Shown: positions 14,264 to 29,031 of the stretch, piece after piece
Layout: every line of letters starts with the position of its first letter
Position numbering within the stretch: position 1 is the stretch's first letter
From: a virus
Strand: one strand, 5' to 3'
IMG/VR virus record: IMGVR_UViG_3300044699_000085
Location: 1-43,487 of that record
Length of the DNA: 43,487 bases
Notes under the pieces: model-generated
The model's input: only the letters and a program-made list of their open reading frames with translations
Told to the model about the DNA's origin: nothing
Databases searched by the model: none
Translations under genes and position numbers: made by a program

Positions 14264-14532
14264 ACAGCGACCGGCCCATGCGTGTGTCAGGCAGCAGCGG
14301 CAACGGCGTATTGGCGGCGCATTCGGAGCCGGCGGTCATCTGCGGCTGCTGCGGCCAGCCGATCCCTGACCTGACGCGCCACGGCGAGGGCTGGACCAGG
14401 GAGCAGGACCAATTCATCAACTACGCCCGGAGCCACGGCTCGTCCTACAAGCTGATCGCGCACACGCTGGGCACCAGGGACCGGCTGGTGATCGGGCGCA
14501 TCAACAACCTCCGCGCCAAGCGTCCGGCATGA
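14260..14532 (+). CDS. Small zinc-ribbon/Myb-like DNA-binding protein
   Basis: 90 residues. A short CGCCGQPI cysteine knuckle (residues ~28-35) is followed by GWTREQDQFINYARSHGSSY and KLIAHTLGTRDRLVIGRINN, a SANT/Myb-like three-helix pattern related to the GcrA helix-turn-helix. Probably a sequence-specific binder. Coupled by ATGA overlaps at both ends. The target is unknown. Confidence 0.6.
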   Translation: MNSDRPMRVSGSSGNGVLAAHSEPAVICGCCGQPIPDLTRHGEGWTREQDQFINYARSHGSSYKLIAHTLGTRDRLVIGRINNLRAKRPA

Positions 14533-14933
14533 GCTACCGCCTCACCGCGCCGGTCGTGCCGGAGCACGGCATCCAGCGCCGGATCGCCAGCGTGCTGCGC
14601 ATCGAGATCGGCGCTGAGGCCAAGATCAGCGAGCACGGCGTGACCTGGTTCTGCATCGACCACGCGAACCACCACGGCGAGGTGCCGGGCATCCGCGTCG
14701 GCCGCGGCATTCCGCCGGGCATCTTCGACATGCTGGTGCTGTATCAGGGCCGCGCGTTCTGGATCGAGCTGAAGAGCCGCAACGGCACGGTGTCCGATCC
14801 GCAGCGGTCGATGGCGGCGACGCTGCTGCTGTCGGGCTGCCGCATCGGCATCGCTCGCGATGAGGACGAGGTGCTGAGCTGCCTCGATGAATGGCAGATC
14901 CCGCGCAAGCGCCGGGTCAGGGTGGCGGCATGA
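14529..14933 (+). CDS. VRR-NUC nuclease
   Basis: 134 residues, intact, the usual length of stand-alone phage VRR-NUC proteins. The catalytic core is readable: GIPPGIFDMLVLYQGRAFWI followed by ELKSRNG, giving the D...ExK metal site, then VSDPQRSMAATLLLSGCRIG for the C-terminal helix and strand. Such enzymes cut branched or flap DNA and serve phage replication or recombination. Four-base overlaps join it to both neighbours. Confidence 0.8.
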   Translation: MSYRLTAPVVPEHGIQRRIASVLRIEIGAEAKISEHGVTWFCIDHANHHGEVPGIRVGRGIPPGIFDMLVLYQGRAFWIELKSRNGTVSDPQRSMAATLLLSGCRIGIARDEDEVLSCLDEWQIPRKRRVRVAA

Positions 14934-15145
14934 CCAGCCAGGCGCCGTGGAAGGGCTGGCTCCGCAAGGGCGATACGGCAGGCACGGTCACCGGAGAACT
15001 GGTTGATTCCTGGGGTTGGCGCGTGGCGTTGACCGGCACATTCGTCGCAACCTCGGGGTCCTATGCGCTGACCGGCGTTCTTGGAGAGCCTCCGTCGAGC
15101 CTCGTTATCGGGGCGATTGACGAAGAAGCGGAGCCACCGAAGTGA
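14930..15145 (+). CDS. Small unknown protein
   Basis: 71 residues from ATG 14930 in an ATGA overlap with the nuclease gene. It is beta-rich, with WKGWLRKGDTAGTVTGELVD then WRVALTGTFVATSGSYALTG, suggesting a small beta-barrel. Acidic C-terminus. The start at 14930 is preferred over upstream in-frame codons because of the overlap. No family recognised. Confidence 0.55.
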   Translation: MTSQAPWKGWLRKGDTAGTVTGELVDSWGWRVALTGTFVATSGSYALTGVLGEPPSSLVIGAIDEEAEPPK

Positions 15146-15276
15146 CCCCGCCCCACCCACGCCTAGCCGTTGCCGGACGAGCCGTCACGCGCCTCGCCGC
15201 CGTGACCAGCCTGGACCTGCCTTGCGTGGTCCCGCCGCGCCATGCCGTCGCCACGCTAACCCTGGGGAGGAAGTAA
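15142..15276 (+). CDS. Very small translationally coupled ORF, 44 residues
   Basis: It starts at GTG 15142 in a GTGA overlap and ends in a TAATG overlap with the next start (15274-15278), exactly filling the gap between two real genes. The product is Val/Ala/Arg-rich (AVAGRAVTRLAAVTSLDL). The precise junctions argue that it is translated; there is no other support. The ribosome site ggggagg of the next gene lies inside its end. Confidence 0.45.
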   Translation: MTPPHPRLAVAGRAVTRLAAVTSLDLPCVVPPRHAVATLTLGRK

Positions 15277-15584
15277 TGCCATCCAGCTTGACTGCGGAAC
15301 AGGCGGGCATTGTGAAGGGCCTGCTGGCGCGCGGAGAAAAGCAGCATGATGTGGCGGCATTCTTCGGCGTGAATGCCGGACGGGTGGCGGAGGTCGCCAA
15401 GGGCTACAAGTTTGCCGACGTGCCACCCTCTCCCAAGCGGGAGTTGCCGACACCGGCGGTCGTCAGCCTGGGCTATTCGTCGCATGTCGTGTTGCAGGCG
15501 CTCGGTATTATCGAGATCGCAATCCAGTCGGCGCGCGCGCGCATCCTGGCGGGGCATGATTTCGAGCAGGGCCGCAAACATTGA
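15276..15584 (+). CDS. Small helix-turn-helix-like protein
   Basis: 102 residues from ATG 15276 with ggggaggaag upstream. LTAEQAGIVKGLLARGEKQH, DVAAFFGVNAGRVAEVAKGY is a resolvase-like helix-turn-helix often seen in phage early operons. The C-terminal half is a separate helix (LGIIEIAIQSARARILAG). Overlaps the methyltransferase start at 15581. The binding site is unknown. Confidence 0.6.
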   Translation: MPSSLTAEQAGIVKGLLARGEKQHDVAAFFGVNAGRVAEVAKGYKFADVPPSPKRELPTPAVVSLGYSSHVVLQALGIIEIAIQSARARILAGHDFEQGRKH

Positions 15585-16594
15585 GTGCGGCGCTCGATCT
15601 TGGCGTAAACGAGACAGTCGCCGAGTGGGAAAGCGAAGGGCTGGAGCTTGGCGAGCGGGAGCGTTCGGCCGCTTCGCTGATGTGGGACATTGGCGATTGG
15701 TGGAACCGCGGTGAACGCTACGGCGGGCGGGCGAAGATCGTCACTGCCAGCGACTGGACCGGGCCAAGCTACGCCAGCTGCCGCAGGGCCGGATCAGTCG
15801 CGGAGCGTTTCGGATCTGTTAGTCGTCTAACAGATTTGAGCTTTGAGCATCACGCTATCGTCGCGCCATTGCCAGACGAGCAGGCAGTGCCCTTGCTGCA
15901 ATGGTGCCGGGATGCGCCGCAGCCGCGTTCGGTGCAGGAATTGCGCACCCGCGTGAAGCAGCTTGCGCGTGCTGCGCGCGAGGCGGAACTGGGTGATGCA
16001 CAGGCCGCATTGAGCGGGCGCTACGGCGTAATCTATGCGGACCCGCCATGGCGCTTCGAGCCATACTCTCGCGAGACCGGCATGGATCGGGCGGCGGATA
16101 ATCACTACCCGACCATGACGCTGGATGACATCCGTTCATTGCCGGTTCCGGCGGCCGACGATGCGGTGCTGTTTCTGTGGGCCACGTCGCCAATGCTGCC
16201 GGAAGCGATAGAGGTCATGACCGGCTGGGGGTTTACCTACAAGAGCCATTTCATCTGGGTAAAGGATCGTATTGGGACGGGCTACTGGAGCCGCAACCGC
16301 CACGAGTTGCTGTTGGTCGGAACCAGAGGCGAGATTCCGGCGCCGGCGCCCGGCGAGCAGTTCGTCTCGGTGATCAACGCGGCGGCCGGCGAGCACAGCG
16401 CCAAGCCAGCGGCATTTGCCGAGATGATCGAGGAGATGTTCCCAAGCCTGCCGGCCATCGAGCTGTTCGCGCGCGGGCCGCGGCTGGGCTGGGACGTGTG
16501 GGGCAATGAGTCAAACTGGGGAGGAACTTATGCCACTAGACCAGACCAAGACCAAAACGCGCCGGCTGAAAATTCCCAAGCTGGAACAGGATGA
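15581..16594 (+). CDS. MT-A70 family adenine DNA methyltransferase
   Basis: 337 residues from TTG 15581 (TTGA overlap). The N-terminal ~130 residues are a helical DNA- or partner-binding part. The catalytic domain begins RYGVIYADPPWRF, with the DPPW motif of N6-adenine MT-A70 methyltransferases, followed by DAVLFLWATSPMLPEA, GFTYKSHFIWVKDRIGTGYW and RNRHELLLVGTRG, and ends IELFARGPRLGWDVWGNE. It may protect phage DNA from restriction or alter GcrA/CcrM-type signals (inference). Its 3' end overlaps the next gene by 65 bases, unusually long for this operon. Confidence 0.8.
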   Translation: MSAALDLGVNETVAEWESEGLELGERERSAASLMWDIGDWWNRGERYGGRAKIVTASDWTGPSYASCRRAGSVAERFGSVSRLTDLSFEHHAIVAPLPDEQAVPLLQWCRDAPQPRSVQELRTRVKQLARAAREAELGDAQAALSGRYGVIYADPPWRFEPYSRETGMDRAADNHYPTMTLDDIRSLPVPAADDAVLFLWATSPMLPEAIEVMTGWGFTYKSHFIWVKDRIGTGYWSRNRHELLLVGTRGEIPAPAPGEQFVSVINAAAGEHSAKPAAFAEMIEEMFPSLPAIELFARGPRLGWDVWGNESNWGGTYATRPDQDQNAPAENSQAGTG

Positions 16595-17237
16595 AGTCGA
16601 AGCGCTCAAGAACGGTGCGGCACCGCCCGAGATCATCCGCGTTACCCGCCCGCGGCTGCGCATTGCCGCCATCCAGATCAAGGGCATCGCGCCCTACGTG
16701 CAGCACGCGTTCTCCGAAAAGCAGCGCAAGGCCATGGAGGAAACGCAGCGCCAGGGCCAGCAGGCGCGCGGCAAACGGACCCGCGTGCCCAAGGATTTCG
16801 AGGCGGTGTACGAGGCCGCCAAGCACTACGCCAGGGAGGGTTGGATCGGCATTCCGGCGCCGGCCTTCCGCAATGCCTGCATCGATGCCTGCCGCCTGGT
16901 CGGCTTCAAGATGACGCACGCCAAATGCAGCATCTTCATTGAGCCGGATGGTTTCGACCGCAACGATGGCACGCCGCTGGTACGTATCCAGGGCGAACCG
17001 CGCATCCATGAGGCGTCGGTGCGCAACGAGAGCGGCGTGGCCGATATCAGGTGGCGGCCGATGTGGGAGCAATGGGGCGCCATCGTCAACGTCCAGTGGG
17101 ACGAGGACCAGTTCAGCGCGACGGATGTGCTCAACCTGATGCTGCGCGCTGGCCTGCAGGTCGGCATCGGCGAGGGGCGGCCGTATAGCCCCAACTCAAA
17201 CGGCATGGGTTGGGGCAGATTTGAAGTAGTGGAGTAG
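16530..17237 (+). CDS. Conserved phage protein of unknown function
   Basis: 235 residues. I choose ATG 16530 because gggaggaactt sits just before it; an in-frame ATG at 16506 lacks that. After a basic N-terminus the protein reads IAAIQIKGIAPYVQHAFSEK, IGIPAPAFRNACIDACRLVG, IFIEPDGFDRNDG and AGLQVGIGEGRPYSPNSNGM, ending GWGRFEVVE. The alternation of strands and glycine-rich end recalls a single-strand or RNA-binding fold, but I do not recognise the family. It lies between a methyltransferase and the replication genes. Confidence 0.65.
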   Translation: MPLDQTKTKTRRLKIPKLEQDEVEALKNGAAPPEIIRVTRPRLRIAAIQIKGIAPYVQHAFSEKQRKAMEETQRQGQQARGKRTRVPKDFEAVYEAAKHYAREGWIGIPAPAFRNACIDACRLVGFKMTHAKCSIFIEPDGFDRNDGTPLVRIQGEPRIHEASVRNESGVADIRWRPMWEQWGAIVNVQWDEDQFSATDVLNLMLRAGLQVGIGEGRPYSPNSNGMGWGRFEVVE

Positions 17238-17254
17238 TAACAACGAACTATAGG

Positions 17255-17325
17255 CATGGCATGGCGAGGCAGGCAAGGCGGGGCATCGCGGGATTGGGCG
17301 AGGCGGGCTTGGCGGGCATGGAGTG
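17255..17325 (+). repeat. Short GGCNN pentamer array
   Basis: About 14 five-base units of the form GGCNN (ggcat, ggcat, ggcga, ggcag, then phase-shifted copies) fill the gap before the gene at 17332. It is a small version of the long array after that gene, and the two flank it. The last units run up to the gtgagg that probably serves as ribosome site. Confidence 0.75.
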
Positions 17326-17331
17326 AGGTTG

Positions 17332-17784
17332 ATGAGCGACAGGACTGACAATCTGGCGAAAGAGCTGCTGGCGTTGAAGGGCGAGGATGGCCTGATCAAC
17401 GTGGCGAAGGCCGAGCAGTGGGCGAAGCGTCATCCGAAGTCTTCGCTGTACGCGCATCTTGAGTGGGACAACGAGGTCGCCGGCGAGAAGTATAGACACT
17501 GGCAGATACGCTCGTTGATCTCGGTGCATATCGTCGATGCCGAGGGATCGCGGCGGCTGGTGCATCTGTCAATTGACAGCAGGAGCGGCGGCTACCGCCC
17601 GATCAACGACGTGCTCGGACAAAAGGAGCTGCGGGAGATCATGTTGGAGGATGCGCTGGGCGAGTTGGAACGGATGCAGCGCAAGTATGCGCGGCTGCAG
17701 GAATTGGATGGGGTCTGGGCTGCGCGCGATCAGGTCAAGCGCAGCAGGCGGGCGAGCGCTGCCGTCGCGGAAGCAGCGGATTGA
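17332..17784 (+). CDS. Unknown phage protein flanked by pentamer arrays
   Basis: 150 residues from ATG 17332 with gtgagg upstream; an in-frame GTG at 17323 is less likely. Segments are INVAKAEQWAKRHPKSSLYA, HLEWDNEVAGEKYRHWQIRS, SRRLVHLSIDSRSGGYRPIN and a long charged C-terminal helix, LERMQRKYARLQELDGVWAA. It seems to combine a short N-terminal helical domain, a beta-sheet core and a coiled coil. No enzyme motif. The arrays on both sides suggest it might bind or maintain them. Confidence 0.65.
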   Translation: MSDRTDNLAKELLALKGEDGLINVAKAEQWAKRHPKSSLYAHLEWDNEVAGEKYRHWQIRSLISVHIVDAEGSRRLVHLSIDSRSGGYRPINDVLGQKELREIMLEDALGELERMQRKYARLQELDGVWAARDQVKRSRRASAAVAEAAD

Positions 17785-18345
17785 TGGCGTGGCAAGTCCG
17801 GTCAGGGCCGGGGCAGGCTAGTCGCGGCAGGCATGGCGAGGCGAGGCTTGGCCCGACCAGGATCGGCTCGGCGGGGCAGGCCCGGCAAGACTGGACGAGG
17901 CTGGGCTTGGCTACGCCAGGCACGGCAGGCGAGGCAGGGCTTGGTCGGGCGGGGCAGGGTACGGCTAGTCAGGGCAGGCTGGGCAAGGCGCGGCTGGGCG
18001 AGGCCCGGCAGGCTGGGCATGGCACGGTCTGGCTTGGCGCGCCTCGTCGCGGCCCGGCTCGGCAGGCACGGCGCGGACGGTCCCGGCGGGTTCCGGCAAG
18101 GCACGCCTTGGCTTGGCCAGGCAGGCGGGGCACGACGAGGCACGTCCGGGCTTGGCATGGCCAGTCGCGGCTTGGCAGGCCAGGCGGGGCAACTCTCGGC
18201 AGGGCCGGGTCCGGTGCGGCCGGGCTGGGCAGGCGGGGCGAGGCTCGTCGGGGCAGGCTGGGCTTGGCAGGCCCCTGCGGGGAAGGGCGGGACGTGGCAT
18301 GGTGCGGCAGGCGCGGCAGGTCTCGGCAGGGTTTGGGCCACGGAG
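17785..18345 (+). repeat. Long degenerate GGCNN pentanucleotide array
   Basis: About 560 bases, roughly 110 units, with five-base periodicity: GGC is kept and the two following bases vary freely (at, ga, tt, aa, cg, tc, ag, gg). The phase slips every 30-80 bases. The top strand is strongly G-rich. Open frames of ~200 codons run through it on both strands, but they translate to low-complexity Arg/Gly/Ala mixtures and are by-products of the repeat. No promoter or gene is visible inside. The array ends ~200 bases before the DnaA-domain gene. Confidence 0.85.
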
Positions 18346-18516
18346 GGGCGGCAACGCCTCTCCGTCGCTGCGTGACGTGAGATGACGCCGTTGCGAAACA
18401 CGCAGAATCAGCGCACAACAGAAATGGCGCCCAGTTGGAGCTGGACGCCATCTGTAACTTTGGACTTGGCTGGAGATGGAGAGCCAAGCGGAAACGGAAG
18501 CTGCAAACCCGTTTTC

Positions 18517-18550
18517 GCACACCTCTCCGGCCATGACAAGAGAGGTGTGC
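18517..18550 (+). promoter_or_regulatory. Hairpin enclosing the ribosome site of the DnaA-domain gene
   Basis: A perfect 11-base inverted repeat, GCACACCTCTC (18517-18527) and GAGAGGTGTGC (18540-18550), has a 12-base loop. The right arm contains the gagagg ribosome site of ATG 18553, so folding should hide it. A second, weaker dyad (ATGGCG...CGCCAT) lies near 18424-18451. Confidence 0.65.
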
Positions 18551-18552
18551 CT

Positions 18553-18855
18553 ATGACATATCCGAGCATTGCCGCCATCCAGGCGGCCGTCTGCGCGCAT
18601 TTCCGCGTCACCCACCTGGATCTGCTGTCCCGCCGCCGGGGACGCGCGATCTCGCGCCCGCGCCAGGTCGGCATGTGGCTTGCGCGCCACACCACGCCCC
18701 TGAGCCTGCCGGAGATCGGGCGGGAGTTTCAGCGGGACCACACGACGGTGATGCACGCGGTGGACCGGATCGACCGCGAGATCGCCGCCATTACACCACA
18801 CGGGGCAATCGCGCTGCAGCTGAGAACAGCGCTGGAACAAGGGGAAGCGGCATGA
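18553..18855 (+). CDS. DnaA C-terminal (domain IV)-like protein
   Basis: 100 residues from ATG 18553. It corresponds to the DNA-binding domain of DnaA without the ATPase: VTHLDLLSRRRGRAISRPRQ, VGMWLARHTTPLSLPEIGRE, FQRDHTTVMHAVDRID. The last segment is the DnaA signature helix (DHTTVxHA) that contacts DnaA boxes. Such truncated proteins occur in phages and may compete with host DnaA or mark the phage origin. The start at 18553 is preferred over an in-frame ATG at 18382 because of the ribosome site and domain boundary. Overlaps the replication gene by ATGA. Confidence 0.8.
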   Translation: MTYPSIAAIQAAVCAHFRVTHLDLLSRRRGRAISRPRQVGMWLARHTTPLSLPEIGREFQRDHTTVMHAVDRIDREIAAITPHGAIALQLRTALEQGEAA

Positions 18856-19646
18856 GCAACTGCAACGGGCACCGCTGGTCCAAATTCTGGTGGCGGGATC
18901 ATCAGGGTGACGCGGCGCTGCGGGCCTGCAGCCTGGCCGCACGCGGCTACTGGATGGAATTGCTGTGCGTGGCGCACGAGGCGACGCCGATTGGCCACGT
19001 CCTGCTCAATGGCCGCGTCCCAACCTATCGGCAGAAGGCAGCCATTGCGGGTTGCACCGAGAAGGAGGCGCAGCGGCTCGAGGTTGAGTTGGAGGAGGCC
19101 GGGGTATTCAGCCGGACCGACGATGGCACGATCTATAGCCGCAGAATGGTCAAGGACGCTGCCCAATCACAGGCTGGCGCTGAGGCCGTCAAGAAGCGAT
19201 GGGATGCCGCCAAACCTAATACCCCCCCTAATAGGGTGGCTAATGGGGAGGCCCATAGGGGGGCTACGCCAACCCCTACTACTAAGAAGCTAGAAGTAGA
19301 GTCAGAGAAAGAGGAGACACCTGTCGGTGTCTCTCCGCGCGCACGCGCGAAAACACCGAAACAAATCCTGCCCGAGAGTTGGGAGCCTGGGCCGAAGGAG
19401 GTCCAGCTCGGGCACCAGCTCGGGCTGTCAGCCGTTGAAATCGCCAGGGAAACCGAGCGAATGCGGGATTGGGCGGCAGCCAAAGCCGCAGCCTACGCCG
19501 ACTGGCACGCCTTCTTCCGCAACTGGCTCCGCGATGCCGTGAACCGCCAGCGCCAGGAGAAAACCCAGCCAGTAACCACCGACGAACTGCGCTCCCAATG
19601 GGGCCTGCCAACCTTCCTCGGACCCAACGGCAGGCTGCTGTCATGA
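18852..19646 (+). CDS. Replication initiator-like protein (O-type)
   Basis: 264 residues from ATG 18852. The N-terminal domain reads KFWWRDHQGDAALRACSLAA, RGYWMELLCVAHEATPIGHV, with GCTEKEAQRLEVELEEAGVF after it, a winged-helix pattern of phage replication initiators. A central low-complexity linker (19200-19340) is followed by a helical C-terminus with GHQLGLSAVEIARETERMRD and WHAFFRNWLRDAV. In lambda the origin repeats lie in the matching linker of gene O. Overlaps both neighbours by four bases. Probably recruits the helicase with the following gene product. Confidence 0.65.
   Translation: MSNCNGHRWSKFWWRDHQGDAALRACSLAARGYWMELLCVAHEATPIGHVLLNGRVPTYRQKAAIAGCTEKEAQRLEVELEEAGVFSRTDDGTIYSRRMVKDAAQSQAGAEAVKKRWDAAKPNTPPNRVANGEAHRGATPTPTTKKLEVESEKEETPVGVSPRARAKTPKQILPESWEPGPKEVQLGHQLGLSAVEIARETERMRDWAAAKAAAYADWHAFFRNWLRDAVNRQRQEKTQPVTTDELRSQWGLPTFLGPNGRLLS
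19214..19333 (+). promoter_or_regulatory. Candidate replication origin inside the initiator gene
   Basis: Repeats related to CTAATRGGG lie at 12-13-base spacing across about 19214-19266 (cctaatacc, cctaataggg, ctaatgggg, ccataggggg). They are followed by an A-rich, lower-GC stretch to about 19315 and a perfect 8-base hairpin, GAGACACC-TGTC-GGTGTCTC (19314-19333). This mirrors the iteron plus AT-rich layout of lambdoid origins. Confidence 0.4.
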
Positions 19647-20209
19647 CCGAAATCCGCGTCGTCTCAGGCTGGCTCACCGACCTCGCCAACCTCACCGCCG
19701 GCAGCGCCATGATGCGCGAAATCAAGCCCAGAATCGCCGGCAACGCCTCCATGCTGGCCGACGCATTCCCAGCCGCAGCCTTCTCCCGCGCCTCGCTCGA
19801 TGCCGTCGCCCGCCAGTGCAAATTCTTCCCGAGCTACAGCGAAATCTGCGAGCATCTCAGCGCCTGGTGGAAGGAGAACCGGCCCACACCACGAGCCATC
19901 GAATCAGACCAGCCAGCCACCGTCAGGCAGCGCGAACTCGAACGGAATAACCGCGAGAGCTGGGAAGCCATCAGCGCCGAGCAAATCCGCACCAAAATCC
20001 GCACCATCCGCAACAGCCCAATGCCAGCCCTGTTCGGCCACTTCTTCGCAACAGCACTCGCCAAACACGCGCCACAGCATCTCGGCCTGCTGCCACCCGA
20101 GTGGCTCGAAGACCGCAACGAACCAGCCTCCGTCACAGCCCTGCGCAGACCAGCCGCCGCCGCCATGCCCAGCGAAGTCCGCCGCGGCGACCCAGAAACC
20201 GCGCCATGA
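19643..20209 (+). CDS. Replication-associated protein (P-position)
   Basis: 188 residues from ATG 19643, intact. It reads VVSGWLTDLANLTAGSAMMR, AFPAAAFSRASLDAVARQCK, FFPSYSEICEHLSAWWKENR and a helical middle, with a Pro/Ala-rich end. The position directly after the O-type gene matches helicase loaders such as lambda P, but I see no sequence motif that proves it. The codon pattern is unusually C-rich from here to 21500, including many cca, gca and gcc codons, distinct from upstream genes. Confidence 0.55.
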   Translation: MTEIRVVSGWLTDLANLTAGSAMMREIKPRIAGNASMLADAFPAAAFSRASLDAVARQCKFFPSYSEICEHLSAWWKENRPTPRAIESDQPATVRQRELERNNRESWEAISAEQIRTKIRTIRNSPMPALFGHFFATALAKHAPQHLGLLPPEWLEDRNEPASVTALRRPAAAAMPSEVRRGDPETAP

Positions 20210-20409
20210 CCAACTTCGCCGCCAGCGACCAGTCCTTGGTCGATATCGCCGCAGCCCTCGAGCAACTCGCCGGGCAGGCCATCGACAACCACGAATTCGC
20301 CCAGGCCGCCGCATTCGCTCAAGCCGCCGCAACCTACCGATGCGCCGACGCCCTCAGCGACATCCTCGCTGCCATCGAGTTGCTCGCGGCCAAGGACTCC
20401 GCCCCATGA
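20206..20409 (+). CDS. Small unknown helical protein
   Basis: 67 residues in an ATGA overlap with the preceding gene. Alanine-rich helices: LVDIAAALEQLAGQAIDNHE, FAQAAAFAQAAATYRCADAL. This looks like a small helical-repeat (TPR-like) fold. No function assigned. Confidence 0.55.
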   Translation: MTNFAASDQSLVDIAAALEQLAGQAIDNHEFAQAAAFAQAAATYRCADALSDILAAIELLAAKDSAP

Positions 20410-20678
20410 TGCCCGACGACGACCGCACCGTCCGCCGCCTCGGACTCCGCTTCGAGCGCCGACTCTGCACCGCCATCGAGCAGTCCAACATCCACCCGCA
20501 TTACGCCCTCGCAATCATGGCAACCGTCCTCGGCGAACTGCTCCACGCCATCCCAGAAGCCGACCGCAGCCAGTGCGTCGAGGCCATCTGCCAGATCATC
20601 GTCACCCACAGCCTCCACGGCTTCGACGCCGCCGCCGAACTCGCCGCCAACAAGCTCAGGCCACACCTCGATGCCTGA
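20406..20678 (+). CDS. Small unknown helical protein
   Basis: 90 residues; ATG 20406 overlaps the upstream stop, and a second ATG follows at once. TVRRLGLRFERRLCTAIEQS and HYALAIMATVLGELLHAI suggest a compact helical bundle. No family recognised. The next gene starts inside its last codons (20671). Confidence 0.55.
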   Translation: MMPDDDRTVRRLGLRFERRLCTAIEQSNIHPHYALAIMATVLGELLHAIPEADRSQCVEAICQIIVTHSLHGFDAAAELAANKLRPHLDA

Positions 20679-20904
20679 ACCAACCAAGGCCGTCGAAGCC
20701 GCCATCCGCGAGGACGGACAAACCATCGCCAACGCCACACTGAAACGCGCCGGCAATGACACAATCATCGCCCTCGCCATCCTCGCCGTCGCCGTCGAGA
20801 CCACGTTCCAACGCATCCAAGACCCGGTGAAGCGATACCAGACCATGACCGAATGGTTCGCCGCGTTCGGCGACGCCGATGAGGACACCCCACATGCCGC
20901 TTGA
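20671..20904 (+). CDS. Small unknown helical protein
   Basis: 77 residues. LKRAGNDTIIALAILAVAVE is a hydrophobic helix in the middle, possibly buried or membrane-facing, followed by PVKRYQTMTEWFAAFGD and an acidic end. It overlaps the previous gene by 8 bases and the NusG-like gene by 11. Confidence 0.55.
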   Translation: MPEPTKAVEAAIREDGQTIANATLKRAGNDTIIALAILAVAVETTFQRIQDPVKRYQTMTEWFAAFGDADEDTPHAA

Positions 20905-21529
20905 CGCACTACCCTCTACCCGGTTAGAGGCACCCAACAGGATGTGCGCCCAGCCCGTCGCGGACGCTACGCCTAGCGGTAGCCGTCCCCTCCCCTGGTT
21001 CGTCATCGCATCCCACTCCCAGGCCGAGCGCCGCGCCGCACAGCACCTCGCCCAGCAAGGCTACCAAACCTACCTCCCGCTCTGCGCCATCAAGCGCCGC
21101 GATCGCGTCGTCCGCTCCATGTTCCACACAATCCAGGTGCCGCTGTTCAGCGGATACCTGTTCACCAGCTTCGATCCGCATGAAAACTGGCGCCCCATCC
21201 TCTACACCCCAGGTGTCTTCAGCCTCATCAGGACCCAGATGGCAACCCATCCCAGTCCCACAGCGCGCCTTGGAGGCCGTCAGAGCCAGTGAGGACGCCC
21301 GCCGCACCCTCACCCTCGGGAACCGCTCTGGCGCCCTGGAGCCGCCTGTAAGCTCGCTGGCGGGGGTGCTTTCGAGGCCATGACGCCGTGGTGACCGCCG
21401 TCAATCACGACCGCGCCGTCGTCGCCCTGCTCATGCTCGGACACCTCCGCGAAGTGCAGGTGCAGCCTCGACTGCCTAGGCCGCACGGGAGTGAATCGTG
21501 GCCGCACGTCTCTCGCCGCGGCACGATGA
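20894..21529 (+). CDS. Phage NusG/RfaH-like antitermination factor
   Basis: About 210 residues after repair of indels near 21230, 21345 and 21475. The NGN domain reads PWFVIASHSQAERRAAQHLA, QQGYQTYLPLCAIKRR, VPLFSGYLFTSF, as in NusG and RfaH, which bind the RNA polymerase clamp. The KOW domain follows, with VSLAGGAFEG and VVTAVNHDRAVVALLMLG. ATG 20894 is the likely start; the repaired frame ends at TGA 21527-21529 in an ATGA overlap with the next gene, which supports the repair. Last gene of the rightward early operon, where lambda has Q, so a role in switching on late genes is a reasonable inference. Confidence 0.75.
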
Positions 21530-21873
21530 CCGCAGCCGCTTCCAAAATTCAGACTAGTCAGCTCATCAACCGGCTGAATCTAGTTCGCCCTCGGTGCGCC
21601 AGATCCCTGCTCGATCCACGGCAAGCTATCGAGATGACCGATACGCAGGTGCGCGCCGCCCTCGGACTGCTGCGCAAGACGCTGCCAGACCTCGCCGTCA
21701 CCGAGCTGCGCGGCGATCCCGACAGGCCCCTCAGCATCGAATTTACTTGGGCGCCAGCAACACCGGCTGTTTCACATGAAACTACACCAGCGCCGCCGGT
21801 GATCGACGCAACGCCAGAGCCGGGCGACAGCACCGAGTTCGTGTGGGGCAAGAGCAGCGATGACGCAGCGTAG
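21526..21873 (+). CDS. Unknown protein, possible small-terminase-type
   Basis: About 115 residues from ATG 21526. The N-terminus TSQLINRLN leads into NLFALGAPDP (after two compensating indels at 21580-21615), then MTDTQVRAALGLLRKTLPDL and PLSIEFTW, and an acidic Pro-rich tail. Proteins with the QVRAALGLLRKTLPDL helix occur near phage packaging genes and are sometimes called small terminase, but here the large terminase is 6 kb away. I leave it unassigned. Confidence 0.5.
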   Translation: MTAAASKIQTSQLINRLNLVRPRCARSLLDPRQAIEMTDTQVRAALGLLRKTLPDLAVTELRGDPDRPLSIEFTWAPATPAVSHETTPAPPVIDATPEPGDSTEFVWGKSSDDAA

Positions 21874-21900
21874 CTACACTCGTCCATACCGTAGCTACGC
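21868..21900 (+). terminator. Perfect hairpin at the end of the early operon
   Basis: GCGTAGCTAC at 21868-21877 and its exact complement GTAGCTACGC at 21891-21900 enclose 13 bases. It overlaps the stop of the gene at 21526 and ends the ATGA-coupled series. Each arm also contains the 8-base palindrome GTAGCTAC, so a protein-binding site is an alternative. No T-run follows. Confidence 0.45.
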
Positions 21901-21921
21901 GCGCCACTACACAGCGGACAG

Positions 21922-22011
21922 GTGCTGATTGCGCTGCTTGGTATATACGGCGCCGTCTGCATCGCCGGCTGGTGCGCGCTGATCCTCGGCGCACGCTGCG
22001 ATGACTGCTGA
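21922..22011 (+). CDS. Possible 29-residue membrane peptide
   Basis: GTG 21922, with a weak ggacag upstream, opens a short frame with one hydrophobic helix (LIALLGIYGAVCIAGWCALI) and a CDDC end. Nothing else occupies 21901-22112 on this strand. The size makes it speculative. Confidence 0.3.
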   Translation: MLIALLGIYGAVCIAGWCALILGARCDDC

Positions 22012-22046
22012 TTAGGCGCGTAATGCCTCCCCAGGTGGCGCCTGAT

Positions 22047-22078
22047 GGGCACGGGCGGTTGCCCGACACAGCCGCCCG
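22047..22078 (+). promoter_or_regulatory. Leader with two exclusive hairpins before PEP-CTERM gene 1
   Basis: GGGCA (22047-22051) can pair with TGCCC (22060-22064), or CGGGCGG (22052-22058) with CCGCCCG (22072-22078). The two stems overlap and cannot form together. They lie 35 bases before ATG 22113 and its ggag site. Confidence 0.35.
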
Positions 22079-22112
22079 CCGCTCAACCACACAACACACA
22101 CCGGAGACACCG

Positions 22113-22650
22113 ATGCGCCCGCTGCTGCTCGCCGCCACGGCACTGCTCGCCACCGCGCCAGCCTATGCCGCGCCAATCGACGCCGGCAGCGTCATGAATA
22201 TCGTCGGCAACGCCACATTCAGCGCCACCGCCATCAGCTTCACCTCGCCCGCCAATCTCGTGACCGGAACCGGCGTATACACAGCGCTCGGCACCTGCGT
22301 CGGCTGCGTCGATGTATCCACACCCGTCACCTACAACCCGTTCACGCCGGTCGCCGAGCCTGTTCAGCGCCACCAACAACGGACTGACGGCGACGGTCAG
22401 CGTCACGGCGCAGCTCGAAGCGCCGGACTACACCGGCAACACGCTGCTCATCGTGGACGCGGCGCTGCTGACGCTCAGCGGCTTCGATCCGACACCCGGC
22501 CGGCTCGCGCTGACGCTCAACCAGGACAGCGGAGAGATCAGCGGCTCGTTCTCGTCCACCGTGCAGGGCATCAGCGTGCCGGAGCCTGCGACGCTGGCGC
22601 TGCTCGGCATGGGCGCGCTCGGCCTCGGGCTGGCGCGGCGGAAGGCGTAG
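22113..22650 (+). CDS. PEP-CTERM secreted protein 1
   Basis: About 179 residues after one frameshift near 22355. The signal peptide is RPLLLAATALLATAPAYAA. The mature part begins with DAGSVMNIVGNATF and contains TCVGC and ATNNGLTATVSV. The end, VPEPATLALLGMGALGLGL then ARRKA, is a textbook PEP-CTERM signal: PEP motif, membrane helix, basic tail. In bacteria an exosortase removes this signal during export to the surface or matrix. No exosortase is seen here, so the host would have to supply it. It shares its whole architecture with the gene at 25696. The start is ATG 22113 behind ccggagac. Confidence 0.8.
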
Positions 22651-22651
22651 C

Positions 22652-22825
22652 GTGCCCGAGCCGTCCGTCGAGCAGCGTGTCCGCGAGCGTGCCTACCGGC
22701 TGTGGGAAGAGGCCGGGCGTCCCTCCGGCCGCTCCGCCGAGTTCTGGCAGCGCGCACGCGATGAGATCGAGCAGGAACTACTGCAGCAGCAGGATGACGT
22801 GATCGACAAGCCGGAGAGCTTCTGA
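22652..22825 (+). CDS. DUF2934-like small protein
   Basis: 57 residues from GTG 22652, one base after the previous stop. VEQRVRERAYRLWEEAGRPS and GRSAEFWQRARDEIEQELL match the DUF2934 pattern (RIRERAYxLWExxGxPxGxxxxFWxxAxxE). This small helical family is common in alphaproteobacterial chromosomes and rare in phages; its function is unknown. The stop overlaps the next ATG (TGATG). Confidence 0.65.
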   Translation: MPEPSVEQRVRERAYRLWEEAGRPSGRSAEFWQRARDEIEQELLQQQDDVIDKPESF

Positions 22826-23004
22826 TGTCGCCCATCATGCTCATCGTATTGGTCCTGCTAATCCTGCTGCTGTTCGGCGGCGGCTGGTATGGCTACCGCG
22901 GCGGCTACTACGGCGGCGGCCCATACGCTTACGGCGGCTTCGGTATTGTCGGCGTGCTGATCGTGCTGCTCGTCGTGCTGCTGCTGTTCGGATACCTGCG
23001 CTGA
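22825..23004 (+). CDS. DUF3309-like two-helix membrane protein
   Basis: 59 residues. Two hydrophobic helices (IMLIVLVLLILLLFGGG and GIVGVLIVLLVVLLLFGYL) flank a Gly/Tyr-rich loop with WYGYRGGYYGGGPYAYGG. The layout is that of DUF3309-type proteins of alphaproteobacteria; the match is by architecture. ATG 22825 overlaps the upstream stop and TGA 23002-23004 overlaps the next ATG. A holin role cannot be excluded. Confidence 0.6.
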   Translation: MSPIMLIVLVLLILLLFGGGWYGYRGGYYGGGPYAYGGFGIVGVLIVLLVVLLLFGYLR

Positions 23005-23239
23005 TGCCGCGCTGGCGTGTCGAGATGCCGCCGCTGCGCTCGGACGCGGCGACTCTGCCGTGGATCGTCGAGGCCGACAAGGTGGCGATTGCCGGCGGCG
23101 CGCTGGTGTTCATGGACCTCGGCCACATCGTGCGCGCGCTCGCGCCAGGCCAGTGGCTGCACCTGACGTTGCTCGGCGACGACGCGCCAGACGATCCGGG
23201 CGACCGCTACACCGCCGCACCACGCAGGCGTGCCGGTGA
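23004..23239 (+). CDS. Small unknown protein
   Basis: About 78 residues from ATG 23004. WRVEMPPLRSDAATLPWIVE, then KVAIAGGALVFMDLGHIVRA and LAPGQWLHLTLLGDD suggest a small beta-rich fold. The open frame as given runs to 23375, over the methyltransferase start. With one indel near 23210 it would end at TGA 23237-23239 in a GTGA overlap, which I prefer. Confidence 0.5.
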
Positions 23240-25268
23240 CGATCCGGCTTCTCACCGGCGATTGCCGCGACGTGCTCGCCACGCTGCCCGAGGCGTCGGT
23301 GCATTGCGTCGTTACGAGTCCGCCATACTACGGGCTGCGGGACTACGGCACGGCGCAGTGGGAAGGCGGCGCTGAGGGATGTAGCCATTCGGTGCCGTTG
23401 GGTAACGGGCCGAAGCTAGAGCCTACGGACGGACACGACGTAGCGTTTCGCACTGGCGCTCAATATACGCAGCAGCGCGTCACGGGCCTCACATGCCGCT
23501 GCGGTGCGCGGCGCATTGACCGGCAGCTCGGGCTGGAGGCGACGCCCGAGGCGTATCTGGCGGCGATGGTGCAGGTGTTTCGCGCCATCCGCAGGGTTAT
23601 GCGAGACGATGCGGTTTGCGTTCGTGAACATGGGTGACTCTTACCGCGACAAGCAGCTTCTGATGATGCCTGCGAGGCTTGCTCTCGCGTTGCAAGCTGA
23701 CGGGTGGTGGCTACGATCAGACATAATTTGGCAGAAGCCAAATCCGATGCCGGAAAGCGTTTCTGGCTCGACTGTGACTAGGCATATGATTACACTCCAA
23801 GAACATGCGAGACTGTCGTGTTTGCGGAGTGGCGGCCAGCGTGCCGACCAAGACGGGGCCAGCGACCTGCCCAGTCTGTCGGCGCGAGAAGTATCTGATT
23901 GTGAAGCGGCGGTATCAGCAGACGGCCAAGGGAATAGCAACGGCCAGGGCACGCGAGGAGCGGTCGGAGGTGCGAGAGAAGCGCCGGCTGTTCTCAGCAT
24001 CGGCCCAAGGCCGCAGGAACAAAGCGAAATACGAGAAGACGGAGAAAGGGAAGGCGCTGCGGCGCAAACTCTCTCTGAAATATCGCAGCAAGCCAGAGGC
24101 CAAAGCTGCCAGCGCGGCGAAGCATCAACAGACGAAGGACGATCCAATTCGGCGGATGCAGCGCAGAGCCGCAGACAGCCGCTACAAACGGACGGACAAC
24201 GGCAAAGCTCTCAAGCATCGCCAGCGAGCCAAGCGCAAGGGCGCGATCCTGGCGACCGAGAAGCTACTGACGGCAGCGGAGTGGAAGGTGATCGTCCTGG
24301 CAGCGAAGGGGAGATGCTACTACTGCCAGGAGAAGGCGAAACTGACGTTGGATCATGTGATCCCGCTGTCCAAGGGCGGCCAGCACACCAAGACGAACGT
24401 GGTTCCGGCCTGCGCGCCGTGCAACTCGAAGAAGAACAACCGGCTGCTCCTGCTGGTCTAGTGCCGTGTCCTGGCTGTGATCGCTGCAATGGTGGCTATA
24501 TCATCCGGCTGTCTGCCGGCAGACCCACGAGCGCGCACGAGCATGTCTTCCTGCTCTCAAAGGCCGCTCGCTACTTTTACGACCAGGAGGCCGTTCGTGA
24601 GGAAGGCGCCGGCCGCACTGACCTGGGCACCATGACGCGAGCTGACGTGCGTCTTGATAGCGGTGGGCCTTGGCAAAACGATGGTGGCGATAAGGGTGTC
24701 TCTGGCCGCAACCTGCGCAAACGTCTGGACGATCCCCACGCACGCCTACAGCGACGCGCACTTCGCCACGTTCCCGCCTGCGCTGGTCGAGCGGTGCATC
24801 CGTGCCGGCACCAGCGAGCGCGGCTGCTGCGCCGCCTGTGGAGCGCCGTGGGTGCGGGTGGGCGACAAGGAACTGGTCGACGTGTGGCATCGGAACAAGA
24901 CGCCCACCAAGGCCGCACAGGATACAGCGGCGCAGCAACAAGGCGATCAGGCGTCACGGCGCGCACGAGATGGACACGTCAGCGGGCATGCCGTGCAGTT
25001 CACCACCACCGGCTGGCGCGCGGGATGCCAGTGTGAGGCCGAAGTGCAGCCCTGTACCGTTTTGGACCCGTTCGTCGGCAGCGGCACAGCCGCCCTGGTC
25101 GCAGATCGGCTGCAGCGTCACGCGATCGGCATCGACCTGAGCATCGACTACGCCGCGATGGCGCAGCGCCGGCTCGAAGCGGATGCGCCGCTGTTCACGT
25201 CATGGGCGCCGGCCGAGCATCCGGTGGAGACGGAGATCGCCGACCTGTTCAGCGTCGCGGCGGACTGA
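23236..25268 (+). CDS. DNA methyltransferase (SPPYY type) interrupted by an HNH gene
   Basis: Site-specific N4-cytosine or N6-adenine methyltransferase. The start is GTG 23236 (an in-frame GTG also at 23230). Catalytic motif IV is SVHCVVTSPPYYGLRDYG near the N-terminus; motif I, LDPFVGSGTAALVADRL, lies near the C-terminus, so the order is the beta class. Frameshifts occur near 23620 and 24715. After KPNPMPESVSG the family normally continues within a few dozen residues to CPGC and GRPTSAHEHVFLLSK. Here about 650 bases carrying an HNH gene intervene (23805-24461), yet the methyltransferase frame stays open through them, adding about 220 low-complexity residues. The product may be a long-linker enzyme, or inactive. 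Confidence 0.75.
23805..24461 (+). CDS. HNH homing-type endonuclease nested in the methyltransferase
   Basis: 218 residues in the +1 frame relative to the surrounding gene. The N-terminal zinc-binding cysteines are CRVCG and CPVC. A long basic helical middle (KYEKTEKGKALRRKLSLKYR and repeats of it) resembles DNA-binding arms of homing enzymes. The HNH core is CYYCQEKAKLTLDHVIPLSK then NVVPACAPCNSKKNNR, with DH and the distal N present. It probably cuts DNA lacking the insertion. The ribosome site before ATG 23805 is weak (caagaac). Codon use is more A-rich than its neighbours, suggesting separate origin. Confidence 0.8.
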   Translation: MRDCRVCGVAASVPTKTGPATCPVCRREKYLIVKRRYQQTAKGIATARAREERSEVREKRRLFSASAQGRRNKAKYEKTEKGKALRRKLSLKYRSKPEAKAASAAKHQQTKDDPIRRMQRRAADSRYKRTDNGKALKHRQRAKRKGAILATEKLLTAAEWKVIVLAAKGRCYYCQEKAKLTLDHVIPLSKGGQHTKTNVVPACAPCNSKKNNRLLLLV

Positions 25269-25282
25269 GCTACACTGGCGGC

Positions 25283-25405
25283 ATGACCGACTGGCGGCGT
25301 GTTCTGCTCGCGATCCTGGTCCTGGCGGCGGTGGGCACCACGGTGTTCCGCAGCGTGCCCGGCCGGATGATGGACCCGGCCTGCTGGCCCGACTGCCCGC
25401 CATGA
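25283..25405 (+). CDS. Small membrane peptide, 40 residues
   Basis: ATG 25283, 14 bases after the methyltransferase stop. One hydrophobic helix, RVLLAILVLAAVGTTVF, and a short end with two cysteines (CWPDCPP). Its stop overlaps the next ATG (25402). No family recognised. Confidence 0.45.
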   Translation: MTDWRRVLLAILVLAAVGTTVFRSVPGRMMDPACWPDCPP

Positions 25406-25596
25406 CGCCGGATGACGCGCTGGCGGACGAGTTGCGCCGGCACCTGGCCGAGCTGGACGTGGAGATCCTCCGGCTGAAGCGCCAGATCGGCGAGCTGCGC
25501 AGCGCCATCGCCGCGTTACTGGCGCCGGATGACTGTAAAGAATACCGACACTTCCAGCCTTTCGTTGCCGATTACCCAGGTAGAAACGCAACATAG
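25402..25596 (+). CDS. Small coiled-coil protein
   Basis: 64 residues in an ATGA overlap. ELRRHLAELDVEILRLKRQI, GELRSAIAALL forms a clear heptad coiled coil. The last ~22 residues are unrelated in style and could come from an indel near 25530. It ends just before the leader of the second PEP-CTERM gene. Confidence 0.5.
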   Translation: MTPDDALADELRRHLAELDVEILRLKRQIGELRSAIAALLAPDDCKEYRHFQPFVADYPGRNAT

Positions 25597-25667
25597 TTGC
25601 ACGATTCTGGGTTGTTTGTCGGAACTCTTTACACTCGCGCCCTCTGGGCCACGCCTACACTCCGACA

Positions 25668-25690
25668 GGGCGCCTTCCGCCCGAAGGAGA
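25668..25690 (+). promoter_or_regulatory. Bistable leader over the ribosome site of PEP-CTERM gene 2
   Basis: Four contiguous five-base blocks, GGGCG, CCTTC, CGCCC, GAAGG (25668-25687), can pair 1 with 3 or 2 with 4. Block 4 is the ribosome site (gaaggaga) of ATG 25696. The 2-4 stem hides it; the 1-3 stem frees it. Confidence 0.45.
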
Positions 25691-25695
25691 ACGAC

Positions 25696-26239
25696 ATGAG
25701 GACACTCTTACTCGCTGGCGCTGCCACGCTGGCACTCGCCACCGCCGCACAGGCCGGCCAGATCTCTGCCGGATCGGTGCTGAACATCGTTGGAAACGCC
25801 AACTTCAACTCGACGCAGGTGACGTTCACCAACCCGGCCAACCTGGTGAACGGATCGGGCGACTTTTGCGCTGCTCGGCACCTGCTTGGGTTGCGTGACG
25901 ATGACCACGCCGCTGTTCTACAACCCGCCGACATTCGGCCAGGCTTACACCGCGACCAACAACTCGCTGACGGCCAGCTTCGACCTGCTGTCGCTCGACA
26001 ACACCTCGGGCAACGGCACCACCACGCTGGGCCTGGAATACAGCGGCGTTGCCCATCTGACGGGCTTCGATGCCACGCCCGGGCAGGTTGTCTACACCAT
26101 CAATCAATTCGGCCAACTGATCGGCAGTTTCAGCGCCTCCACCATCGCCAACCCGGTGGCTGAGCCGGTCTCGCTCGCGATCCTGGGCACCGGGCTGCTC
26201 GGCCTGGGCCTCGTGCGTAACCGTCGCCGTGATGTCTGA
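25696..26239 (+). CDS. PEP-CTERM-like secreted protein 2
   Basis: About 181 residues after one frameshift near 25865. Signal peptide: RTLLLAGAATLALATAAQAG. The mature start, SAGSVLNIVGNANFNSTQVT, is a close paralog of the first protein, as are LGTCLGC and TATNNSLTASFD. The end, VAEPVSLAILGTGLLGLGLV then RNRRRDV, keeps the helix and basic tail, but the PEP motif has become AEP, a tolerated variant in some bacteria. ATG 25696 lies behind gaaggaga. Both paralogs keep a Cys-x-x-Cys pair, which may form a disulfide outside the cell. Function unknown; surface location is inferred from the sorting signal. Confidence 0.75.
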
Positions 26240-26436
26240 CACCCCGCCGCTCGACCGGTTGGCGGGATGCGAGATGATGCTGACCCAGGACGGCACGCTG
26301 AAAGTCACGCTGCTCATGAAACGATCTGGAGGAGGCCCGCGCCTGGGCCTCCTACCTGCTCGCCTGGCGCCGTTTCAAAGCCAAGCCTGACCACGAGCCG
26401 CTCGGCGGCCTCCTGCAGGTGCGGAATGCCCGCTAA
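26232..26436 (+). CDS. Small unknown protein (frameshifted)
   Basis: About 67 residues from ATG 26232, overlapping the previous stop by 8 bases. It reads DRLAGCEMMLTQDGTLKVTL, then after an indel near 26317 LEEARAWASYLLAWRRFKA and GGLLQVRNAR, ending at TAA 26434-26436. No family recognised. Confidence 0.45.
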
Positions 26437-26656
26437 GCTGTCTTACCCGGTGTATCGGCGCTGGCTGAGCGGCGCCAAGCCGCTCGAGGTGGAGGTGCTG
26501 CACGAGACCGGCACGCAGGCGCTGGTGCGGGTCTGGCGCGAGCCTGGGGCGCCGAAAGGGGAGCGCATCGCCTGGTGGGTGGCGATCAGCGCGCTGATGG
26601 ACGAGCCGCTGCGGATGCGGCGGCGGCCCAAGCGGTGCCTGCAGGTGCAGCGGTAA
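26426..26656 (+). CDS. Small basic unknown protein
   Basis: 76 residues from ATG 26426, overlapping the previous gene by 11 bases. SYPVYRRWLSGAKPLEVEVL, HETGTQALVRVWREPGAPKG is a small beta-sheet-like protein with a very basic end (RMRRRPKRCLQVQR), perhaps nucleic-acid binding. No family recognised. Confidence 0.5.
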   Translation: MPAKLSYPVYRRWLSGAKPLEVEVLHETGTQALVRVWREPGAPKGERIAWWVAISALMDEPLRMRRRPKRCLQVQR

Positions 26657-26668
26657 AGCCAAGGCGCC

Positions 26669-27310
26669 ATGAGCACGAGCATCAAAGCAGCATTCACCAA
26701 GGCCGGCTATGCGGATAGCACGGAGACATGGCCGTCCGAGGAGCTGCTGGCGGTGGGGGTGCGGGCGATGGTCAACCATGCCAACGACACCGAGGCCGCG
26801 CAGCATGCCATCATGCGGGCGTGCCGCAATGACCCGGCACTGCTGCGTCAGCTTATCATCCCCTGGTGGCGGCAATGCACCGCGCAGCTCATCAACGAGG
26901 CGCGGCGGCAGATCGAGCGCAAGCAGCGCACCGAGGCGCTGGAGACGCCGCTGGAGCGCCGCGCCGGCAAGGTGGTCTCGCTGATGGCAGAGCATGACGC
27001 GCGGGAAGCGGCCAAGGAACATCGGGCGGAGATGGCGCGCATCGCGAAGCTCGACGCTGAGAACAAAGCTATGATCGCAGTCCAGGTTGAGCGTTGGCGG
27101 CAGACCAGGGCTGGCAACTTCACCATCAACGACAAGCCATTCTGGCAGGTCAGCACATTCATGGCGAAGCAGTGGCAGATACGCCATGAGCAAGGGACGC
27201 GGTTCGTGGACCTGTTGCTGTCAGGCGTGCCATTGGACGACCGGCCCATCGGGCACTACCGCAGGCCCGAGGAGATCAATGCGCTGTGGGAGCGGTCCTT
27301 ACAGACCTAG
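26669..27310 (+). CDS. Unknown protein upstream of the packaging genes
   Basis: 213 residues, ATG 26669 behind aaggcgcc. N-terminal helical region (AVGVRAMVNHANDTEAAQHA, IMRACRNDPALLRQLIIPWW), a strongly charged central coiled coil (INEARRQIERKQRTEALETP and on), and a C-terminal part with FWQVSTFMAKQWQIRHEQGT. Its location before the large terminase suggests a small-terminase or regulatory role, but no helix-turn-helix is clear. Confidence 0.55.
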   Translation: MSTSIKAAFTKAGYADSTETWPSEELLAVGVRAMVNHANDTEAAQHAIMRACRNDPALLRQLIIPWWRQCTAQLINEARRQIERKQRTEALETPLERRAGKVVSLMAEHDAREAAKEHRAEMARIAKLDAENKAMIAVQVERWRQTRAGNFTINDKPFWQVSTFMAKQWQIRHEQGTRFVDLLLSGVPLDDRPIGHYRRPEEINALWERSLQT

Positions 27311-27328
27311 GAGATACCCGTAAACGGT

Positions 27329-27340
27329 CGTTTGCAAACG
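27329..27340. promoter_or_regulatory. Palindrome before the packaging block
   Basis: A perfect 12-base palindrome, CGTTTGCAAACG, in a short AT-richer gap 8 bases before ATG 27348. The size and place suggest an operator or promoter element; no partner promoter is clear. Confidence 0.4.
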
Positions 27341-27347
27341 TTCCCAC

Positions 27348-27488
27348 ATGAGTGACGAGGACGAGCGGGCGATGGCGCTGTTGCGCTGGCTGCTGGCGTT
27401 GTCGCTTGTGCCGCAGGGCGAAACCGCAGCTAATCGGCGCCGCCGCCGCAAATTGCTCGTCTGGGTCAAGAGCCAATTAGCCGGCTAA
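27348..27488 (+). CDS. Small unknown protein, 46 residues
   Basis: ATG 27348. RAMALLRWLLALSLVPQG is an amphipathic helix, followed by a basic stretch NRRRRRKLLVWVKSQLAG. The frame is intact and starts just after the palindrome; the ribosome site is poor. No family recognised. The following 27489-27660 holds no gene that I can support. Confidence 0.4.
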   Translation: MSDEDERAMALLRWLLALSLVPQGETAANRRRRRKLLVWVKSQLAG

Positions 27489-27660
27489 ACCCGGGTGCCG
27501 CCGTCCGCACCAAGTTGCTTACCACGCCTTATACAGCGCTGCCTTAATCGGTCGTCACAATCGCCAAAGCCCGCGCCATGGGCCTGACTCCCAGGTTCGG
27601 GCCAGGGCCGGCACGGTGGTAATGACGCCGGCCGGCCCGCTCACCGCCGCTTAACCCCAC

Positions 27661-27710
27661 GGTCCGTCAGCGGTCCGTCAAACTCCGTCAGACTCCATCA
27701 AATCCCGTCA
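27661..27710. repeat. Helically phased CCGTCA repeats at the terminase start
   Basis: Five copies of CCGTCA (one CCATCA) begin at 27664, 27675, 27685, 27695 and 27705, that is every 10-11 bases, so all face the same side of the helix. The last runs into ATG 27710. Phased short repeats beside a terminase gene fit a packaging-recognition or control site. Confidence 0.6.
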
Positions 27711-29031
27711 TGTCCGAAACACAGCGCCAGAGGCTGGAGGTGCCGTTCGCGCCTCGCCCGTGGCAAATCCCGCTCATCGACGACCCGGCCCAGCGCATCG
27801 TGGCCGTGGTCCATAGGCGTGCCGGCAAGAGCACGGCGCTGCTCTGGCGCGGCCTCAAGCGGGCGGTGACCACCAGGCGCCCGCAGCCGCGCGTCGTCCA
27901 TATCCTGCCCTACGGCGTCATGTGGACCCGCACAGGGCTGTGGGACCAGGCGGTCAAGGCAGCTGAGGCGATCCCCGGCAGCCAGGTGCGGCGCTCCGAA
28001 ATGGCGATCCGGCTACCGAACGGCGGAACGTGGCAGGCGGGAGGGGCGGACAATCCCGACAGCTGGCGCGGCGGCTATGGCGACGAGATCATCATCGACG
28101 AGTTTGACGACACGCCGCAGAGCATGGTGCCGCTGGTCATAGAGCCGATGCTGGCGGATCGCGACGGGACGCTGGTGCGCAGCGGCACGCCGAAGGGCCG
28201 CGGGCTGCTCCAGGCGGCCTATGAGCGAGCGCGTGTCACCGCCCGGCCACTCGGCCTACCTGCTCGACTACCGGGCGACCGGCGCACTGTCCGACGCGGC
28301 GATTGAGCGCCTGCGCGCCGAGATGAGCGATGAGGAGTTCGCCCAGGAACTGGAATGCTCGTTCAGCGCGCCGAACTCGGGATCGTATTACGGCAAGCTG
28401 CTGGACGAGGCTGAGCGCGCAGGACGCATCACCGCGGTGTCGCACGACCCGGCGCTCAAAGTGTGGACCGGCTGGGATCTGGGCGTCCACGACAGCACGG
28501 CGATCTGGTTTGCGCAGGTGACCCGCTCCGGCGAGTGGCGGCTGATCGACTACATCGAGGATTCGGGCGTCGGGCTGGACCATTATGCGCGGCTACTCCA
28601 GCAGCGGCCTTACGTCTACGAGCGCCACATCCTGCCGCACGATGCGGCGGTGAAGGAGCTGGGCAGCGGGCTGGCGCGCACCGAGACGCTCAACAGCCTC
28701 GGCGTGCGGCCCTGGCGGGTGCTGCAGCAGCACGGCGTGGCGGACGGGATCAACGCGGTGCGCATGGTGCTGCCGAAATGCTGGATCGACGCAGAGCGCT
28801 GCGCCAAGGGGCATCCACGCGCTGCGGCACTACAGACGCGAGTGGAACGAGGCGGCGCAGACCTGGCGCAGCAGTCCGGTGCATGACCACGCCTCGCATG
28901 GCGCGGATGCCGCGCGCTATCTGTGCCTGGGCGTGCGGCAGGACCAGCCGCCGCCGGTCGAGCGGGCGCCGCGCGAGCCGTGGGAATATACCCAGCCCGG
29001 CGAACTCACACAGGACTGGATGCGGCTGTGA
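27710..29031 (+). CDS. terL: Terminase large subunit
   Basis: Packaging motor ATPase and headful nuclease, about 440 residues after repair at 28225 and 28815. Walker A is VVHRRAGKSTALL (residues ~33-45), Walker B is EIIIDEFDDTP. The nuclease domain has TGWDLGVHDSTAIWF with the first acidic residue, then ILPHDAAVKE and HDHASHGADAARYL with the late metal-binding Asp. The start codon overlaps the last phased repeat. The stop at 29029-29031 overlaps the GTG of the next gene. A headful type fits the P22-like head genes that follow. Confidence 0.9.

Follow-up and report, generated by a model that had tools for sequence, protein, structure and literature searches.

A NusG-specialist gene at the position of lambda Q in a phage genome and its relatives, with a promoter-like element over its first codons

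The gene and its reading frame

The stretch of DNA analysed here (the window) is a phage record from IMG/VR, linear and 43,487 bp long. On its + strand, at 20894–21529, lies a gene for a NusG specialist, made up of an NGN (RNA polymerase-binding) domain and a KOW domain. The NGN domain is encoded in frame at 20996–21238, where a profile search returns PF02357 with an E-value of 6e-16 (54 bits against a cut-off of 22), in line with the structural matches to RfaH and NusG of an AlphaFold2 model of a sister protein; the KOW coding region follows at 21320–21480. The open reading frame opens at 20894 as MPLDALPSTRLEA, and its start codon (ATG CCG CTT GAC) agrees with the conserved start in four related loci (L004, L005, L009 and L022). 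A sequence-only reading of the window had described one NGN plus KOW gene reaching to 21529. The NGN domain bears this out, but the single open frame does not: the frame from 20894 ends at a stop at 21292, and the KOW-coding fragments occupy the other two frames.

The sister phage L002 (IMGVR_UViG_3300032421_000009), which is 99% identical to the window and served as the reference for indel comparison, carries the homologue as an open gene (L002:10001–10621, 206 aa, NGN plus KOW), with the NGN domain present as a PF02357 match at 9e-17. Compared with L002, the window lacks one base at each of four sites between 21233 and 21478 and has one extra base at each of two more; six indels that break the frame, all within the 3' half of the gene, could be taken as marks of a decaying pseudogene. 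Yet the gene is intact in this sister and in all complete relatives, and the two phages are separated by 52 frame-breaking indels over 16.2 kb of aligned sequence (window 13170–31969), some of which lie within the portal and terminase large subunit (TerL) genes, which are essential, and within a PEP-CTERM gene. The window contig thus looks error-rich. We therefore read the frame break as most probably a sequencing or assembly error, and regard decay of the gene as unlikely.

Gene order among relatives and affinities of the protein

Upstream of the gene the window carries replication genes, namely a Bac_DnaA_C domain (DnaA domain IV; 18382–18855, E 4e-26) and a replication-initiation match (18675–19646). 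A phage protein with DnaA domain IV beside a replication-initiation gene is also conserved in several relatives. Downstream, likewise on the + strand, lie a small conserved gene, c1 (21634–21873), the TerL gene (27671–28658, in two frames; phrog_2) and the portal gene (29720–31655, broken across several frames; phrog_156, cluster c4). Protein scans of IMG/VR recovered more than 30 related loci at 36–60% identity, the complete ones being intact, and clustering of open reading frames gave the order nusG, c1, TerL (phrog_2) and portal (phrog_156) in the relatives with enough sequence, with c1 after nusG in 26 loci. In compact relatives nusG and c1 touch or overlap, TerL begins about 200–280 nt past nusG, and nusG and terS are not separated by a leader of their own. 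The gene c1 is probably the terminase small subunit gene (terS), since the gene at the same position in a Bradyrhizobium tropiciagri prophage (L042) matches phrog_15261 and the TerS family phrog_18735. One relative carries a fusion of ParB_N with an N6/N4 methyltransferase between nusG and terminase (L015:2548–3990), a member of a cluster (c25) also found in L016, L018 and L020.

In lambda, the gene for Q follows the early replication genes and precedes the late operon. The proposal that the nusG gene occupies this position, after replication genes and before TerL and portal, was confirmed in the window, and the arrangement recurs in unrelated phages. The order is rep-like protein, NusG, HNH, TerL and portal in Labrenzia phage vB_LagS-V1, and replication protein, NusG, TerS, TerL, gpW and portal in Microcystis phage yong2. 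Bradyrhizobium phage ppBjS10J-1 and the prophage L042 likewise have NusG ahead of the terminase and portal genes; their NusG proteins are about 81% identical while their TerL and portal proteins belong to different families. Synteny inside the main family is partly a matter of common descent. The retention of the nusG position while late modules were exchanged nevertheless argues for a role that depends on position, and the recurrence points to repeated capture, by NusG-type factors, of the late-gene switch that Q holds in lambda.

The Q families themselves (PF06530 and PF03589) gave no match over the cut-off in ten records (the window and nine relatives). Searched as DNA against phages, the window region had no match. 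A scan of genome contigs with the family profile returned no match; scanned with the ppBjS10J-1 protein, such contigs yielded one Bradyrhizobium prophage. Two matches in the phage collection were discarded as bacterial-type genes in phage-labelled records: a Salmonella RfaH, and the secE-nusG-rplK-rplA cluster of a record labelled Microcystis phage MaAM05 (MW495066; L124), which also carries ilvD and kdgK and is probably bacterial contamination.

Because the window copy is split, the protein was characterised from the intact L002 homologue. RfaH, the E. coli NusG paralog, has the same NGN plus KOW layout and is the best match by profile and by fold. Among curated profiles the protein scores 70.4 bits against RfaH (TIGR01955), 48 against UpxY, 26 against LoaP and 18.6 against NusG, in each case below the equivalog cut-off (144.5 bits for RfaH, 100 for UpxY and 125 for LoaP), and its sequence matches in the PDB all belong to RfaH. 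In the AlphaFold2 model (mean pLDDT 78, residues 1–34 disordered) the NGN domain matches E. coli RfaH with a Z-score of 12.6, and the KOW domain is modelled as an open beta-barrel (strands 157–203, Z about 9–10 to KOW domains). Profile and modelled fold thus mark the protein as a NusG specialist, with RfaH as its closest match. A hydrophobic PLFxxYxF segment and a Trp are kept across 13 divergent relatives, and conservation of the PLFxxYxF sequence would be consistent with binding to the RNA polymerase clamp helices and suppression of pausing.

The residues that define the RfaH mechanism are a different matter. In RfaH, K10 and R73 contact ops DNA and E48 and F130 take part in autoinhibition (PMC7593976). 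In our alignment (A1) the ops-contact residues K10 and R73 are replaced by H46 and P111 in L002, an Arg at the R73 site being found only in L012, L013 and L017, and the autoinhibition residues E48, I93 and F130 are replaced by V87, L132 and V173. With these residues absent, the protein falls outside RfaH as strictly defined, and we do not predict that it is recruited to specific sequences in the manner of RfaH. The earlier designation as a NusG/RfaH paralog accordingly stands for NusG-specialist identity, and falls for RfaH proper on residues and score. At the Rho-contact loop of NusG (I164-F165-G166) the family retains (F/L)-G, in an alignment uncertain by one residue there, so that loss of Rho contact cannot be claimed.

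The missing RfaH residues and the open beta-barrel model of KOW mean that recruitment could be general, as for NusG. Both would suit a host-takeover factor that competes with host NusG on all polymerases, relieving Rho-dependent silencing of phage DNA or disturbing host transcription, and that has no dedicated late target, its place ahead of the terminase being simply inherited. We consider this unlikely, given that the same position is held in phages with unrelated late modules and that a conserved nucleotide element lies at that very position.

Conserved nucleotide elements around the gene

That element, E1, lies over the first nusG codons on the + strand (20901–20929) and is bipartite and promoter-like, TTGACG-N17-TTAGAG in the window. 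A k-mer comparison of 24 loci singled out ACCCGGTTAGA, which is the right half of the pattern TTGAC-N16-GGTTAGA; this pattern occurs on the + strand, once per genome and always on the first codons of the nusG paralog. Among the 24 loci retrieved by protein whose 5' end is complete, 20 match it exactly, and in the remaining four TTGAC is retained but the right half differs. Variants include TTGAC with CATATC or CATATG at the same N17 spacing (L006, L015 and L016) and a diverged form (L028). When all of IMG/VR was scanned for the 14 specified bases of E1, 78 contigs were found, and in 34 of these the match lay at the 5' end of a NusG-family open reading frame, including members distant enough to score only 82 bits on the family profile. 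Wherever these NusG loci extend far enough, c1, TerL or portal follows downstream.

Conservation of E1 could in principle reflect the encoded peptide, and this was rejected. The wobble base of codon 4 of the element, which lies outside the search pattern, is A in all 23 non-redundant sequences (median protein identity 41%) even though the codon encodes seven different amino acids; in the rest of the gene, A stands at 13% of wobble positions. Selection therefore acts on the DNA. Within E1 a TTA codon is also invariant, and TTA accounts for 2.4% of leucine codons in phages of the nusG family; as TTA belonged to the search pattern, its invariance is partly by construction. The reading of E1 as a variant of ops or of the consensus pause was likewise rejected, because its flanking bases do not match across the family.

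The geometry of E1, TTGAC[GA]-N17-TTAGAT or CATAT, is, we infer from the sequence, that of a housekeeping promoter. A combined sigma-70 promoter and terminator scan of 18–30 kb gave nothing above chance, under rules (A at position 2, T at position 6) that would miss E1. If E1 is a promoter, the nusG start codon would be missing from its transcripts, which must then serve downstream genes.

The ops-like pause element that the sequence-only reading had proposed to look for did not turn up on the + strand near the gene. The single exact match to GGCGGTAGNNT in the window is on the – strand at 644–654, and no ops element was found on the + strand near nusG, although the ops of the host could differ from the form searched; a looser ops-like pattern matched 16 times in the window against 9.5 expected, in no case sensibly placed near the gene.

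A second element, E2, lies after terS on the + strand (22011–22084) and is non-coding. It comprises about 74 nt common to six related phages, of which 39 nt are almost invariant, and is predicted to form two hairpins (fold z –3.3; covariation weak, with one pair). Its core occurs in seven contigs collection-wide, six of which hold the nusG family, the seventh (L048) beginning inside c1. E2 is confined to the clade of the window and missing from most of the nusG family, and an Rfam search with it returned no match. Directly past E2 the window encodes a protein with a PEP-CTERM sorting signal (VPEPATLALLGMGALGLGLARRKA; 22114–22650), frameshifted at 22359 and intact in L002. A small Gly/Tyr-rich membrane protein follows E2 in several relatives (22825–23004 in the window; also in L048).

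Packaging signals are frequently found at or near terS. Since E1 and E2 flank terS and each occurs once per genome, they might be packaging (pac or cos) or replication signals near the terminase genes, unconnected with the NusG specialist. The promoter geometry of E1 speaks against this, including the CATAT variants that resemble a –10 hexamer at the same N17 spacing, as does the absence of E2 from most of the family, and we hold such a function to be improbable.

Late-gene control and known systems

From what was computed, namely the fold, the domains, the conserved position and the nucleotide elements, we infer RNA polymerase binding, a recruitment site, antitermination and dependence of the late genes on the protein. 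We propose, with a probability of roughly 0.6, that the protein acts as an elongation factor of the phage's own, rendering host RNA polymerase resistant to termination on the late operon, and so does the job of lambda Q. The specialist would be a delayed-early product, its gene closing the rightward early operon. On elongating host RNA polymerase the NGN domain would occupy the site to which NusG and RfaH bind, shutting out host NusG. Polymerase so bound would become resistant to pausing and termination across the terminase, head and tail genes that lie immediately or shortly downstream. Loading would probably take place in cis near the gene, with E1 the likely late promoter or loading region, and in the clade of the window E2 would be a second candidate loading site.

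A more specific form of this proposal is a convergent replacement of lambda Q and pR', in which the late promoter lies inside the first codons of nusG, the untranslated rest of the nusG reading frame serves as the late leader, and the specialist loads there and blocks termination ahead of terS, terL and portal, the whole module having moved as a unit between unrelated late modules. This version is offered tentatively, the odds being somewhat against it in all its parts.

The likeness to lambda Q is one of position: the proteins are unrelated, and in these phages the promoter-like element overlaps the nusG gene itself. Among NusG specialists, location inside or beside a long target operon is established (PMC7593976, PMC7819879), and UpxY, TaA, LoaP and the specialists of plasmid tra operons resemble the phage gene in being encoded inside or beside the long operon presumably served. 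They differ in that the phage target would be the terminase and structural genes. The phage gene also differs from rfaH in adjoining its presumed target operon. PHROGs already gives NusG-like genes of phages the label 'antiterminator'; one such family, PHROG 6386 (transcription antiterminator, an annotation label), is matched by the NGN domain of the window, by L017 and L029 and by the Labrenzia protein, and we found no functional study of it.

The presence of rfaH-like genes on prophages is mentioned in one phrase in PMC7593976. In the literature searched, which covered few subscription journals and no preprints, we came across neither an account of NusG specialists in the place of Q nor one of a promoter-like element embedded in nusG; both the recurrent position in unrelated phages and the element seem undescribed. 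To our knowledge, lambdoid phages and a few others are the only ones in which the control of late genes is well understood. Should NusG specialists indeed occupy the place of Q in phages from soil, rhizobia, the sea and cyanobacteria, a universal family of elongation factors would have been recruited as a late switch, and the horizontally spread NusG paralogs of bacteria may have a common origin with these phage switches. Thanks to the conserved DNA element, the question of recruitment can be tested directly.

Two further genes of the window may be recorded here. An MT-A70-type DNA methyltransferase is encoded in the early operon (15581–16594), and a second methyltransferase gene, frameshifted, lies around 23.5–25.0 kb.
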